Source: Accumulibacter sp.
GTDB taxonomy: Bacteria; Pseudomonadota; Gammaproteobacteria; Burkholderiales; Rhodocyclaceae
Direction: 5' to 3'
Length of the DNA stretch: 64,000 nt
Assembly: GCA_031257115.1 (NCBI GenBank)
Contig: JAIRPF010000075.1
Span: 1 to 64,000, forward strand
Shown: positions 8,525 to 61,500 of the stretch, piece by piece
How positions within the stretch are numbered: position 1 is the stretch's first letter
Layout: each line of letters starts with the position of its first letter
Translations under genes and position numbers: made by a program
Notes under the pieces: generated by a model
Told to the model about the DNA's origin: nothing
The model's database searches: none
Seen by the model: only the letters and a program-made list of their open reading frames with translations

Positions 8525-9090
8525 CGTTGACCACGACGGATATGGTGAACACGGCGAAAGACATGAAAGCAGAAGATTTTCTGGTTTTCGCCCATGACAG
8601 TTCCATTTGCAATGACCCGCAAGGGGCGGCACCCCTCTCCCGTCATTGCGAGGCGCGCGGCGCCGTGGCAATCCAGAATGACCGGGATCGGGAAGGGACT
8701 GGATTGCTTCGCTTCGCTCGCAATGACGGCCGGGGCGTTTCATATTACATATCGGATGATTTCGAATGAACTTGTCATGGTTTTCTTTCGTCGTATCCTC
8801 CGTGGCTGGAAAGCGTTAACCACGGCGAACACGGCGAAAGACATGAAAGCAGAAGATTTTCTGGTTTTCGCCCCTGGCGATTCCATTTGCAATGACCCGC
8901 AAGGGGCAGCGTCCCGCTCTCGTCATTGCGAGGCGCGCGGCGCCGTGGCAATCCAGAATGACCGGGATCGGGAAGGGACTGGATTGCTTCGCTTCGCTCG
9001 CAATGACGGCCGGGGCGTTTCATATTGCATATCGGATGATTTCGGGTGAACTTGTCATGGTTTTCTTTCGCCGCATCCGCCGTGCTTTCA
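8525..9090. repeat. Direct duplication of ~290-bp composite intergenic unit
   Basis: 8525-8811 and 8815-9090 nearly identical; each contains CGTCATTGCGAGGCGCGCGGCGCCGTGGCAATCCAG...GGATTGCTTCGCTTCGCTCGCAATGACGG. Confidence 0.95.
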
Positions 9091-38713: not shown

Positions 38714-39560
38714 CCACGACGGGCGCGACGAGGAACAGGAGCGAAAACCAGAAAACTTCGGGCACGAAGGACATGGAGGATGCGAAGAAAAGCAAGGAAA
38801 GCGAATACGGCAAATCCGCTTGAAGTCATCCGATATGCGGTATAAACGCCCCGTCGTCATTGCGAGCGAAGCGAAGCAATCCAGTTCCTTCCCACCCGAT
38901 CCCGGTCATTCTGGATTGCCACGGCGCTGCGCGCCTCGCAATGACGAGCGTGGGGGTATCGCCTTTTGTGGATGATTGCAAAGGGAATCGCCATATCTGC
39001 GGGGCGCGGAGGATTCGTGCGTTCCCTTACCACCGTCATTCCCGCGAAAGCGGGAATCCAGGGCGTACCCCCGGCGCGAAGCGCCGCAAGCCAAGCCTTC
39101 CTCTTGGGGGAGGTAGCTCGCGGCGTAGCCACAAGTCGGAAGGATTCGTGTGGTTGAATTTCAGGTGCGGATGTTTGATAAACGGGGTTTTTCTTTGCTT
39201 TTCGTTGTGCCCATCGTGGTTAACGATTTCTAACCACGATGGGCACAACGAAAGAAAAACTATGGCGAGTTCACTTGAAATCATCCGATATGCAGTATGC
39301 CCCCATCGTTGCAGTATGCCCCCATCGTTGCAGTATGCCCCCATCGTCATTGCGAGCGAAGCGAAGCAATCCAGTTTTCGCTCGATCCCGGTCATTCCGG
39401 ATTGCCACGGCGCTGCGCGCCTCGCAATGACGAGCGAGGGGTGTCGCCTTTTGTGGATGATTGCAAAGGGAATCGCCATATCTGCGGGAAGGGCGCGGAG
39501 GATTCGTGCGTTCCTTTCCTACCGTCATTCCCGCGAAAGCGGGAATGACGAGAGTGATGG
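38712..39560. repeat. Large intergenic repeat mosaic with palindromes and a short tandem repeat
   Basis: Two copies of CATTGCGAGCGAAGCGAAGCAATCCAG...GGATTGCCACGGCGCTGCGCGCCTCGCAATGACGAG; CGTCATTCCCGCGAAAGCGGGAATCCAG; perfect 20-bp inverted repeat 39203-39222/39231-39250; 3x 19-bp tandem at 39292-39347. Confidence 0.92.
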
Positions 39561-39588: not shown

Positions 39589-40377
39589 TCATTGTTTCCT
39601 TTTGCCGCCGAACATTTGTCGATTGGCGTCGATGAGGAGTTTCAGTTGTTCGGTTGTTTTGCGGTATTGCGAGCAGGGGTTGACTTTTTCGATCTTGCCG
39701 CTCATCACGCATTCAAACGGCGCGGCTTTTGGGCGGTGGTATTTTTCGATCGCGCATATGCCGGTGTAAAACGAGATCCGTTTGATTTGCGGCGCGTAGC
39801 CGTGCAGGAAATTCATGACTTCGATGTTGTCGATGACATCGTTCATTTCAAAATGGTCGACATTCAGCGCGTCCACCAGGCGCTTGAAAAATTCGACCGA
39901 CGATCGCGGACGGCGGAAGCCGCCGCCGGAGTTCGCGTAATAGCTGTGTTCCATGTCCTCGATCAGATAGATGCCTCCTTCCGACAGCATCGGGAACAGG
40001 TTGAAAAAGGAACAGACGACTTCTCTCGATTGGTGCGATCCGTCGTCGATCATCAGATCGAATTTCATGCCGCCGAAGGTACGGGCAATGAAACCGCTGT
40101 CCGCCGCGTTGCCGAGATGGAAATGGATGTTGGGTGAAAATCGCAGGGCGCCGCAGCGCGGATCGATGTCGACGCCGTGGATTTGCGAGCCGGTGGGCAG
40201 ATATTTTTCCAGGATTTGCAGGGAACCGCCGTTTTGCACGCCAATTTCCAGGACCGTCATCGGTTTGCCGGCCTCGATCGAGGGGCGCAACAATTCGTCA
40301 TAAACGCAGGGGTAGTGCGTCCATTTCTGCGATACGTAGTCGGCATGGCCGATGAAAAGTTCGTCATAGTCGCGCAT
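39589..40377 (-). CDS. Class I SAM-dependent methyltransferase
   Basis: VLEIGVQNGGSLQILEKYLP, IHGVDIDPRC, FDLMIDDGSHQ. Confidence 0.8.
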   Translation of the reverse strand: MRDYDELFIGHADYVSQKWTHYPCVYDELLRPSIEAGKPMTVLEIGVQNGGSLQILEKYLPTGSQIHGVDIDPRCGALRFSPNIHFHLGNAADSGFIARTFGGMKFDLMIDDGSHQSREVVCSFFNLFPMLSEGGIYLIEDMEHSYYANSGGGFRRPRSSVEFFKRLVDALNVDHFEMNDVIDNIEVMNFLHGYAPQIKRISFYTGICAIEKYHRPKAAPFECVMSGKIEKVNPCSQYRKTTEQLKLLIDANRQMFGGKRKQ

Positions 40378-40423: not shown

Positions 40424-41855
40424 CTAAAAATTTTTTTCACGGGCATGAAAGGTCGGAAAGAGTGAACCTACATGCACGACATTCTCTTCGCATACGATGG
40501 CGTCGAGAGCATTTTTCATCATTTTGACCAGTTCTCCGGAGGAAATGGCGGCGAGGGAAGAGGATCCCCGGCGAACCAGCGAGGCCGCCAGTTCCGAAAC
40601 GCATCGGTTGACAAACGCGGTCAATTCGCGCTCGTCCGCCGTGGTGTCCGCCGGGGCGAAGGTCTTGATCCGCGCGCCGGAAGCGTCGTCGCGGCGAAGC
40701 GTGACGACGCTCGCGTGGCCTGGATCGAGCAGCATCTCAAAGATGTAATGCGACGCGGGGAAATCCGCTGTCGGAAAGAGTATCGTCAGCCGGCCTTCAC
40801 TCACACGGCGGGCGCGATCGTCACGTTGTTCCTGTGGAAGGAGCTTGTCGAAGTATAAGAAGAAAAGACATTCCCGTTCCACGCCGGCGCGTCGGAAGAA
40901 GCGGTATATCGAATGGCCGGAGGACAACATGTCGACGATCAGGCAATCCGGTTCCAGACGATCGAGGAACACGGCGTCGGCTTCTCCCGACAGCATCAGG
41001 GCGCGCGTCATGTCCAGTTGCTCGGATTCGATTTCCGGGCAGAGGACGCGAAATACGTGGGATACGTGACAGCAATCGCGGCTGACGAAAATCAGTTTGC
41101 GGCGCGGCGCGGCAAGCGCGAGTTGCCGCAGATAGAACGCGGCGCACAGCAGGAAGGTCAGGTAGGGGCCGACGACGGTCGCGTAGAACTCCCCCCCCCC
41201 CGAACAGCGGCATCGCGCGCAGGCGCACTTCGCGGACGATATGCGCCAGATGCGTCCAGTCCGGGCCGGCGTCCGCCAGCCGTTGTTCCCAGTCCGTCAA
41301 TTTCGTGTCGGCGATCATTTCGGTCCGAATCCCCAACAGGTGGGGCATCATATGGTCCGAACGCGGATTGTCGCCGTGGTGAATCCGGATGATGTGATCC
41401 GCCGACAGATGATGCCAGACGCTGCCCGTTGCCTTGCCCCAGTTGCTGACGACCGGCGGGCGGGCGGTATGCAAGCCGCAAATGCGCCGGAGGATGTCCT
41501 GCACCTGGTCTACCGACAGATACATGTCGGAAACGATCAGATCGAGCGGGGCCACGCGCTCGATCTGGCGGCGCACCGGAATCAGTTGATCCATTTCGAC
41601 GGACAGTTCCAGCGAGATCAACTGGCCGCTCAGTTCGGGCGATATGTCGAACAGTTCTTCCATGCACCGATAGATGCGATGGAGCGTGTAAGGCTTGCGC
41701 TGGCCGTCGAGCACGCGCTGCGCCTGCTGCCTCGCCTGCGCGTAGCCGGTCACGCCGCTTACTTCTTCCACCAGGTCGAAAACGCGGAGCGGGTCGACCA
41801 GGAAACGGCCGGCCAGCGTGTCAAACAAGTCCCAGGTGTCGATGGCGGTTTTCAC
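40424..41855 (-). pseudogene. HAD-superfamily hydrolase-like (COG5610-like) gene, frameshifted at an 11-nt G tract; candidate phase-variable locus
   Basis: N-term DTWDLFDTLAGR, VSDMYLS in one frame; frame switch at 41191-41201 (11 C on + strand); downstream frame EFYATVVGPYLTFLLCAAFYLRQ...MTRALMLSGEAD continues to 40424. Confidence 0.75.
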
Positions 41856-42064
41856 GGGTTTTCTCCGGCAATGGGAAATGGAATGGAAAATAGAATGGAA
41901 ATGGAAATACGATCACTCTCCTTCGATTTTTCCCGCTCTTTCCGAATACTCGCCTCCATCGCTTCATTCTCCGCAAGGTCATGTAAAAGTATGGAAGTAT
42001 ATATTTATCGACGGTTTTCATCGAAGGCGCGCGCGAGGGAGCGGGAAAACCTCCGGCGCCAGGG

Positions 42065-43219
42065 TCAGCGCATCCGGCGGCGGAAGAGCCAACTGGCCAG
42101 CGCCAGCGCGGTCGCGCCGATCAGGGCCATCGGCCAGAACAGGTGGGTCAGGACGTCGAAACCGGCGCCTTCGAGAAATATCTTACGCAGGACGGCCATG
42201 AAATAGCGCAGGGGGTCGATCAGCGTGATGGCCTGGACCGCCGGCGGCATGTTGGAGATCGGCGTGGCGAAGCCGGAAAGGATGACCGCCGGCACCAGAA
42301 ACAGGAACGCGCCGAGCAGTCCCTGTTGCTGCGTGACGGCGAGCGAGGAGATGAACAGCCCGAAACCGACGCCGGAAAGCAGAAACAGCGCCAGGCCGCA
42401 ATAGAGCGCCGGCAGGCTGCCGAGCAGCGGCACGCCGAACCAGAGGGTGACGATCAGCAGAATCACGGAACCCTGCGCCATCCCGATCACGAAACCGGGC
42501 AGCGCCTTGCCGAGCAGGATTTCGCCCGGCCGCAGCGGAGTGACCAGCAATTGGTCGAAAGTGCCTTGCTCGCGCTCGCGCGCCACGGTCATCGCGGTGA
42601 CGAGAATGGCCGTGATCAACGCCAACATGCCGACGACGCCGGGAATGAAAAACCATTGGCTTTCGAGGTTCGGGTTGAACCAGGCGCGCGATTCCAGGGT
42701 CGCGGGCGCGCCGGCCTGCCCGCGTTCGCGCAGCCAGCGCGAATTGAATCCGTCGACGATGCCGCGCACGTAGTTCAGCGCCACCAAGGCCGTGTTCGAA
42801 TTGCGGCCGTCGACGATCACTTGCAGCGGCGCGTCGACGCCGCCCGGCGGAACGGACAGCAAGCGTTCGGAAAAACGCGGCGGAATGTGGATCACCAGCA
42901 ACGCCTCGCGGCTGTCGATCAGGGGCGCGATTTCGCCCTCGGAAGCCAGCGACGCGACCCGCCGAAACGCCGGCGCGCCCGAGAACGCCGCCTCGAAACC
43001 ACGCGCCAGCGCGCCGCGATCTTCGTCGTAGATGGCGTAAGGGATGTATTTCAGGTCGAAACTGGCGGCGTAGCCGAAAATGATGAGCTGAATGAGCGGC
43101 GGACCGATCAGCACGGTACGGCTTTTCGGATCCTTGAAGAGCGCCAGGAATTCCTTGACGATAAGCGCAAAAATCCGGGTCAGGGCAGGGGGAGGAGAAA
43201 ACACGATCGAATCAGCCAT
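42065..43219 (-). CDS. ABC-2 type transporter permease (YhhJ-like)
   Basis: IVKEFLALFKDPKSRTVLIGPPLIQLIIFGYAASFDLKYIPYAIYDED; EREQGTFDQLLVTPL. Confidence 0.88.
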   Translation of the reverse strand: MADSIVFSPPPALTRIFALIVKEFLALFKDPKSRTVLIGPPLIQLIIFGYAASFDLKYIPYAIYDEDRGALARGFEAAFSGAPAFRRVASLASEGEIAPLIDSREALLVIHIPPRFSERLLSVPPGGVDAPLQVIVDGRNSNTALVALNYVRGIVDGFNSRWLRERGQAGAPATLESRAWFNPNLESQWFFIPGVVGMLALITAILVTAMTVAREREQGTFDQLLVTPLRPGEILLGKALPGFVIGMAQGSVILLIVTLWFGVPLLGSLPALYCGLALFLLSGVGFGLFISSLAVTQQQGLLGAFLFLVPAVILSGFATPISNMPPAVQAITLIDPLRYFMAVLRKIFLEGAGFDVLTHLFWPMALIGATALALASWLFRRRMR

Positions 43220-43235
43220 CAAACCGCCACGAAGC

Positions 43236-43625
43236 GGCGGTTGCAATTTAACCACGGTGGGGGGGTGGGAGAGTCGTCAAATGCGGTCAAACAGAAAAAC
43301 CGCCGTTCCCGCGCGGGCAGAAGTTCAATGCCCACACCTCACGTCATTCCCGCGAAAGCGGAAATCCAGTTCGGGTCCCCAATCCGAAGGGCCGCAAACC
43401 AAAAATGGAGCGCGGGCGTCCCGCCCGCAAAAAAGCGGATGAAGCGGGCGAGACGCCCGCGCTCCATATCCCGGCCCGGCCTGCCGCGTTCGGCCGTCGC
43501 ACCGCGCCGGAGTCTACGTGCTGGATTCCCGCTTTCGCGGGAATGACGGGGATTTTCTTTCGCTTTTTGCCCTTCACCATGCCCACCGTGCTCGCCGTGG
43601 TCAAAGCTTTTCGCCTCCGCCTTCA
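43236..43625. repeat. Intergenic repeat mosaic
   Basis: CGTCATTCCCGCGAAAGCGGAAATCCAG; ATGGAGCGCGGGCGTCCCGCCCGC..GCGGGCGAGACGCCCGCGCTCCAT; GATTCCCGCTTTCGCGGGAATGACGG; GTGCTCGCCGTGGTC. Confidence 0.9.
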
Positions 43626-61052: not shown

Positions 61053-61094
61053 TCCGGCGTCCCTGCGCGAGGCTTTCGATGCGACAAGGTGCGA

Positions 61095-61500
61095 AACTTT
61101 TTGACCGTGGCGGGCGCGGCGGAAGGCGAAAAACATTGACCACGGAGAACACGGAGAAAGGCGAAAACCCTTTTGACCGCGAAGAGCGCGGCGGAAGGCG
61201 AAAAGCGAAAGAAATTCCTCGCCGCTCTCACGCTCACCCCGTCACTCCCACGAAAATCCCCCCGTCATTCCCGCGAAAGCGGGAATCCAGCGCGTAAACT
61301 CCGGCGCGAAGCGCCGCAAGCCAAGCCTCCCTCTTGAGGTAGGTGGCCCGCCAAAGGCGGGTCGGAAGGAGTCGGGCGGTCGTTCTTCCAATCACGCCGC
61401 GCCGCCGAAAAACCTTGGGCCACGGAGTTCACGGAAAAACACGGAGAAAAATCTTTTGAAAGCTTTCACCTTCCGCCGCGCCCGTCGTGGTCGACCGTTT
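61095..61500. repeat. Intergenic repeat mosaic
   Basis: TTGACCACGGAGAACACGGAGAAAGGCG; CGTCATTCCCGCGAAAGCGGGAATCCAG; CCTCCCTCTTGAGGTAGG; 9-nt-type repeats. Confidence 0.9.

Follow-up and report, generated by a model that had tools for sequence, protein, structure and literature searches.

A poly-G tract between the two domains of a predicted ribofuranosyltransferase-type gene in Accumulibacter: a probable phase-variable locus assembled in the OFF state

Introduction

Phase variation by homopolymeric tracts has been described mostly in pathogens and commensals adapted to a host. The closest described systems are the poly-G/C contingency loci of Campylobacter, together with those of Helicobacter and Neisseria, in which a G/C homopolymer lies inside the coding frame of a surface-glycan gene, one third of the tract lengths keep the frame, and many such loci are present per genome (PMC6321876, PMC8355987, PMC5953494). 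G/C tracts are regarded as prone to slip from a threshold of 7-8 or more (PMC6321876). On the enzymatic side, the known architecture is bipartite: one domain, phosphoribosyltransferase-like, uses PRPP as the donor for transfer of ribose-5-phosphate, and the other, a HAD domain, takes off the phosphate (PMC10299916, PMC11127046). The HAD phosphatase comes first and the phosphoribosyltransferase-like domain second, both in the Thermobacillus composti protein (PDB 7SHG) and in CrpP-CriT of the Haemophilus capsule polymerase Bcs3 (PDB 8A0C/8A0M; PMC10299916, PMC11127046).

Here we analyse a 64,000-nt stretch of an Accumulibacter genome (the window), in which a run of 11 G splits a gene that resembles both kinds of system. 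The organism belongs to the Rhodocyclaceae, which are Betaproteobacteria in traditional naming. In the open literature that we searched, the coverage of which was incomplete, we found no report of phase variation in the Rhodocyclaceae (the Rhodocyclales came up only in passing), nor any that brings ribofuranosyltransferases and phase variation together. Like the Campylobacter loci, this one combines a homopolymer in the coding frame with a putative surface-glycan gene, has one third of the tract lengths in frame, and stands among many long tracts in its genome. It differs from them in lineage, in that the tracts of the genome are often longer (10 to 18, against a typical 9-10), and in being known from one assembled tract length.

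A run of 11 G separates two open frames

The locus comprises the following elements, by position in the window:

42065-43255: ABC-2 transporter permease, upstream of the split gene
41202..41855, minus strand: first half, predicted HAD phosphatase domain (motifs DLFDT, SDMYLS, GK, HHGDNPRSD), with a GTG start at 41855
41191..41201, minus strand: G11 tract, lying at the frame break in the interdomain linker
40821..41201, minus strand: aberrant post-tract frame at 11 G, ending with a stop at 40821 in the ORF list
40424..41190, minus strand: second half, predicted phosphoribosyltransferase-like domain (VSRDC, IVDMLSSGHS), out of frame at G11, with a stop at 40424
39589..40377, minus strand: methyltransferase (Methyltransf_24, family match E 4e-8)

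The minus strand reads CGCTGTTC-G11-AGTTCTACGCG, with TTC directly before the tract. The ORF that opens at the GTG comprises 344 codons and ends at 40821, while the other frame 3' of the tract (EFYATVVGPYLTF...) contains no stop in 254 codons, a stretch over which 0.04% of base-shuffled trials remain free of stops. The flanks of the tract both score as coding sequence, each in another frame. By frame arithmetic, tracts of 7, 10 or 13 G join the two frames and a tract of 11 G does not. The preliminary description of this DNA, which had placed an 11-nt poly-G in a HAD-like gene, read the 11-G frame to 40821 and the frame restored by 10 (or 7, 13) G to 40424, and put a methyltransferase gene 46 bp past the latter stop, is accurate on all these points. 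A chance origin of the tract is unlikely, since dinucleotide shuffles of the window yield on average 0.04 expected G11 runs per window. All remaining G/C runs in the window are of 7 or shorter. The tract is thus long enough to slip and lies inside a coding frame.

The methyltransferase and the split gene may share one transcript. Several kinds of repeats were also seen: an imperfect GGAAAT-type repeat (41874..41908, no strand assigned) just 5' of the GTG start; tandem repeats at 39291-39347 (19 bp x 3, perfect), 8547-9084 (280 bp x 1.9) and 61094-61204 (37 bp x 3.1); and GGGAATGAC-type palindromic repeats that recur in the intergenic DNA of the window.

The two frames are one gene in orthologs

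Single ORFs matching both halves were found in Paraburkholderia silviterrae (L072), P. eburnea (L080) and Burkholderia sp. (L073), with identities of 47-49% for the first half and about 31-36% for the second. Two further orthologs, L071 (51%) and L074 (37%), are likewise continuous across the junction. Because the orthologs are single intact ORFs, the two frames represent one gene, and the length of the tract sets the frame of what is otherwise an intact ORF. The G-run is absent from the junction in all five. The preliminary description had looked to orthologs for both the tract and the downstream domain: the downstream half is indeed part of the one-piece proteins, but the G-run is not there. 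From the conserved RLR/RLS motif to the V-x-G motif, likewise conserved, the linker has 12 residues in all five orthologs, and by codon count it would have 12 in the split gene at G7 and 13 at G10. It looks as if an ancestral G7 had lengthened, although the count depends on a linker that is short and variable.

The ortholog comparison bears on another explanation, namely that expression changes while the DNA does not, with RNA polymerase or the ribosome slipping on the G-run to give a mixture of full-length and truncated products. Transcriptional slippage can arise on long homopolymers, and both frames are open here. Yet no slippery site is conserved at this position in the orthologs, so that any frameshift here is not a conserved programmed one, and we consider this explanation very improbable.

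The gene was absent from all 28 congeners searched and is therefore accessory. No close ortholog was found in 399 genomes of the family, the homologs there having at most 38% identity, and a search of plasmid records for a second allele gave no match. Homologs of the downstream methyltransferase are present at the ortholog loci L075, L076, L078, L079 and L081; the same query had no hit at L072 or L080, the two Paraburkholderia loci. Upstream of the gene, locus L076 encodes GT41-like and GT25-like glycosyltransferases, and locus L077 has an FkbM methyltransferase directly 5' of it.

The product is probably a bipartite PRPP-dependent enzyme

Pfam and NCBIfam gave a confident family for neither half, and we drew the functional assignment from sequence and fold matches in the PDB. 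For the first half, the match is to the HAD phosphatase region of Bcs3 (E 2.4e-6; about 1e-32 with the ortholog profile), and the HAD motifs of this half are invariant in the ortholog alignments. The second half is conserved among orthologs. Its sequence profile alone remained below significance (7SHG, E 0.085), so that its assignment rests mainly on the fold: structure prediction from the out-of-frame sequence of the window and the ortholog alignment gave a pLDDT of 86.7 and a pTM of 0.88, and the only PDB matches at E <= 0.001 were chains of 7SHG and Bcs3. The fold search with the intact ortholog L072 returned the same two. With a more distant homolog, L087, the matches extend over both domains, at 1.7e-58 to Bcs3 and 5.8e-16 to the Thermobacillus ribofuranosyltransferase 7SHG.

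These matches suggest that the gene product is probably a bipartite PRPP-dependent ribofuranosyltransferase, with a HAD-family phosphoribose phosphatase domain and a transferase domain of phosphoribosyltransferase-like fold, split by G11 exactly between the two. The earlier label of a HAD-like gene thus holds for the first half and is sharpened to a two-domain protein of ribofuranosyltransferase type. Its SRD motif corresponds to S678-R679-D680 of Bcs3. Unlike Bcs3, the protein is short and has no ribitol-phosphate transferase; compared with 7SHG and Bcs3, the sequence identity of the second half is very low and the activity is a prediction.

The state of the two domains is also relevant to the possibility that a recent break has turned the gene into a non-reverting pseudogene, in which the G-run grew by chance under no selection and has no regulatory role. 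The gene is accessory, the DNA 3' of the two-gene unit is rich in repeats, and a fresh single frameshift would look alike. Nevertheless, about 470 codons carry no second lesion, the catalytic motifs of both domains are intact and the second half is still confidently folded, and G-runs are in excess across the genome and occur in other surface genes (see below). We therefore find a dead gene unlikely.

Long G/C runs abound in the genome and in some congeners

The source genome (3.36 Mb in 212 contigs) was surveyed by pattern counts and in selected sequence stretches. Among its 60 G/C runs of at least 8, 25 reach at least 10, against about 6 expected from the rate in 20 low-tract congeners combined (54 of 566). 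The binomial P is 6e-11, and it is 2e-8 when four runs close to the ends of contigs are set aside; these values are descriptive, because the grouping of congeners into low and high was drawn after seeing the counts. The other eight congeners (G001, G004, G007, G011, G012, G019, G020, G025) also show an excess, with 11-42 runs of at least 10 each, part of those in G011, G019 and G020 being clustered or near contig ends and possibly artefacts.

On a partial classification of the genes, the excess of the source genome includes surface functions. Tracts lie in frame in an Acyl_transf_3 protein (G10), a UDPG/GDP-mannose dehydrogenase (G13) and an LPS kinase (G12), at the signal peptide of a subtilase (G11), and after that of a pectate lyase (G11). 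The LPS kinase (Kdo/WaaP; L044, contig C112) has three orthologs of 79-84% identity without a run at that site, and a fourth, in congener G004, with a G14 at a different site of the gene (loci compared, L120-L127). Four similar autotransporter-like ORFs, L019 (contig C6), L022 (C21), L036 (C71) and L053 (C151), carry runs of 10 to 18 C near their 5' ends, before a signal-peptide-like segment; an upstream ATG is in another frame for three of the four, and a Pfam match (PATR) exists for L019 alone. Further long runs are intergenic, so that not every run is a switch. In congeners, where genes were named by reading the sequence, runs directly follow an ATG that precedes glycosyltransferase-like ORFs (L104, L109) and occur in an LPS kinase (L100), close to the start of a TonB-receptor-like ORF (L096) and within an aminotransferase-like ORF (L115).

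Other observations concern single runs. At loci L021, L063, L042, L049, L047 and L017, genes of the following kinds contain or adjoin a long run: acyltransferase, UDPG/GDP-mannose dehydrogenase, subtilase, pectate lyase, beta-helix lipoprotein-like and CapD-like. A G10 was seen 5' of a Y-family DNA polymerase-like ORF (L030, contig C58). The start of contig C6 (L018) and the end of C164 (L055) present the same context with G10 and G11, respectively, plus one substitution, and are either repeat copies or strain variants. Loss of mismatch repair was considered as a cause of the long runs and rejected for the source genome, where open frames of both mutS and mutL are present.

The survey also informs on the quality of the assembly. 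Were the count of 11 a mistake of sequencing or assembly, and the real length one that keeps the frame, the gene would be intact. A draft of 212 contigs could misreport an 11-base run, and lengths such as the 23 and 61 G recorded where contigs end, or close by, are untrustworthy. Against this, the five coding runs of 10 to 13 G listed above are all in frame in the same assembly, and an in-frame G10 would remain a slippage-prone tract. We regard a length error as improbable, at about the level of the pseudogene or slightly below it.

Discussion

The most plausible reading, and one that we consider probable, is that this is a phase-variable gene of ribofuranosyltransferase type that was assembled in its OFF state, slippage and reversibility in living cells being what we infer. 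The preliminary description had already proposed a contingency locus captured OFF. A number of arguments favour this: the gene is broken at the G-run, its halves are intact, it has the look of a glycan enzyme, and the genome-wide tract context favours phase variation; the switching itself is the conjectural part. The proposed mechanism would involve 1) use of PRPP by the C-terminal phosphoribosyltransferase-like domain to place ribose-5-phosphate on a surface glycan; 2) removal of the 5-phosphate by the N-terminal HAD phosphatase; 3) possible decoration of the product by the neighbouring methyltransferase; and 4) gain or loss of single bases in the G-run of the linker by replication slippage. 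Tracts of 7, 10 or 13 G would keep the frame and correspond to the ON state. With the 11 G of the assembled allele, the frame would be lost after the phosphatase, a stop would follow about 120 codons on, and no transferase would be made, which corresponds to the OFF state.

A broader reading is that a poly-G phasome has evolved in some species of the genus with mismatch repair retained; in this organism it would include phase-variable ribofuranosylation of a surface glycan. Such a phasome would hold dozens of long G/C runs, some of them in glycan, LPS, secreted and autotransporter-like genes. We see this broader reading, with its content, as evenly poised between right and wrong. If it is true, the presence of tract-dense and tract-poor species in one genus would reveal a rapid rise of the strategy in a new lineage, and would offer a natural comparison between closely related species that have dense tracts and those that lack them. 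It would also make the addition of ribose to surface glycans subject to random on/off switching, which may provide an escape from phages, predators or host recognition.
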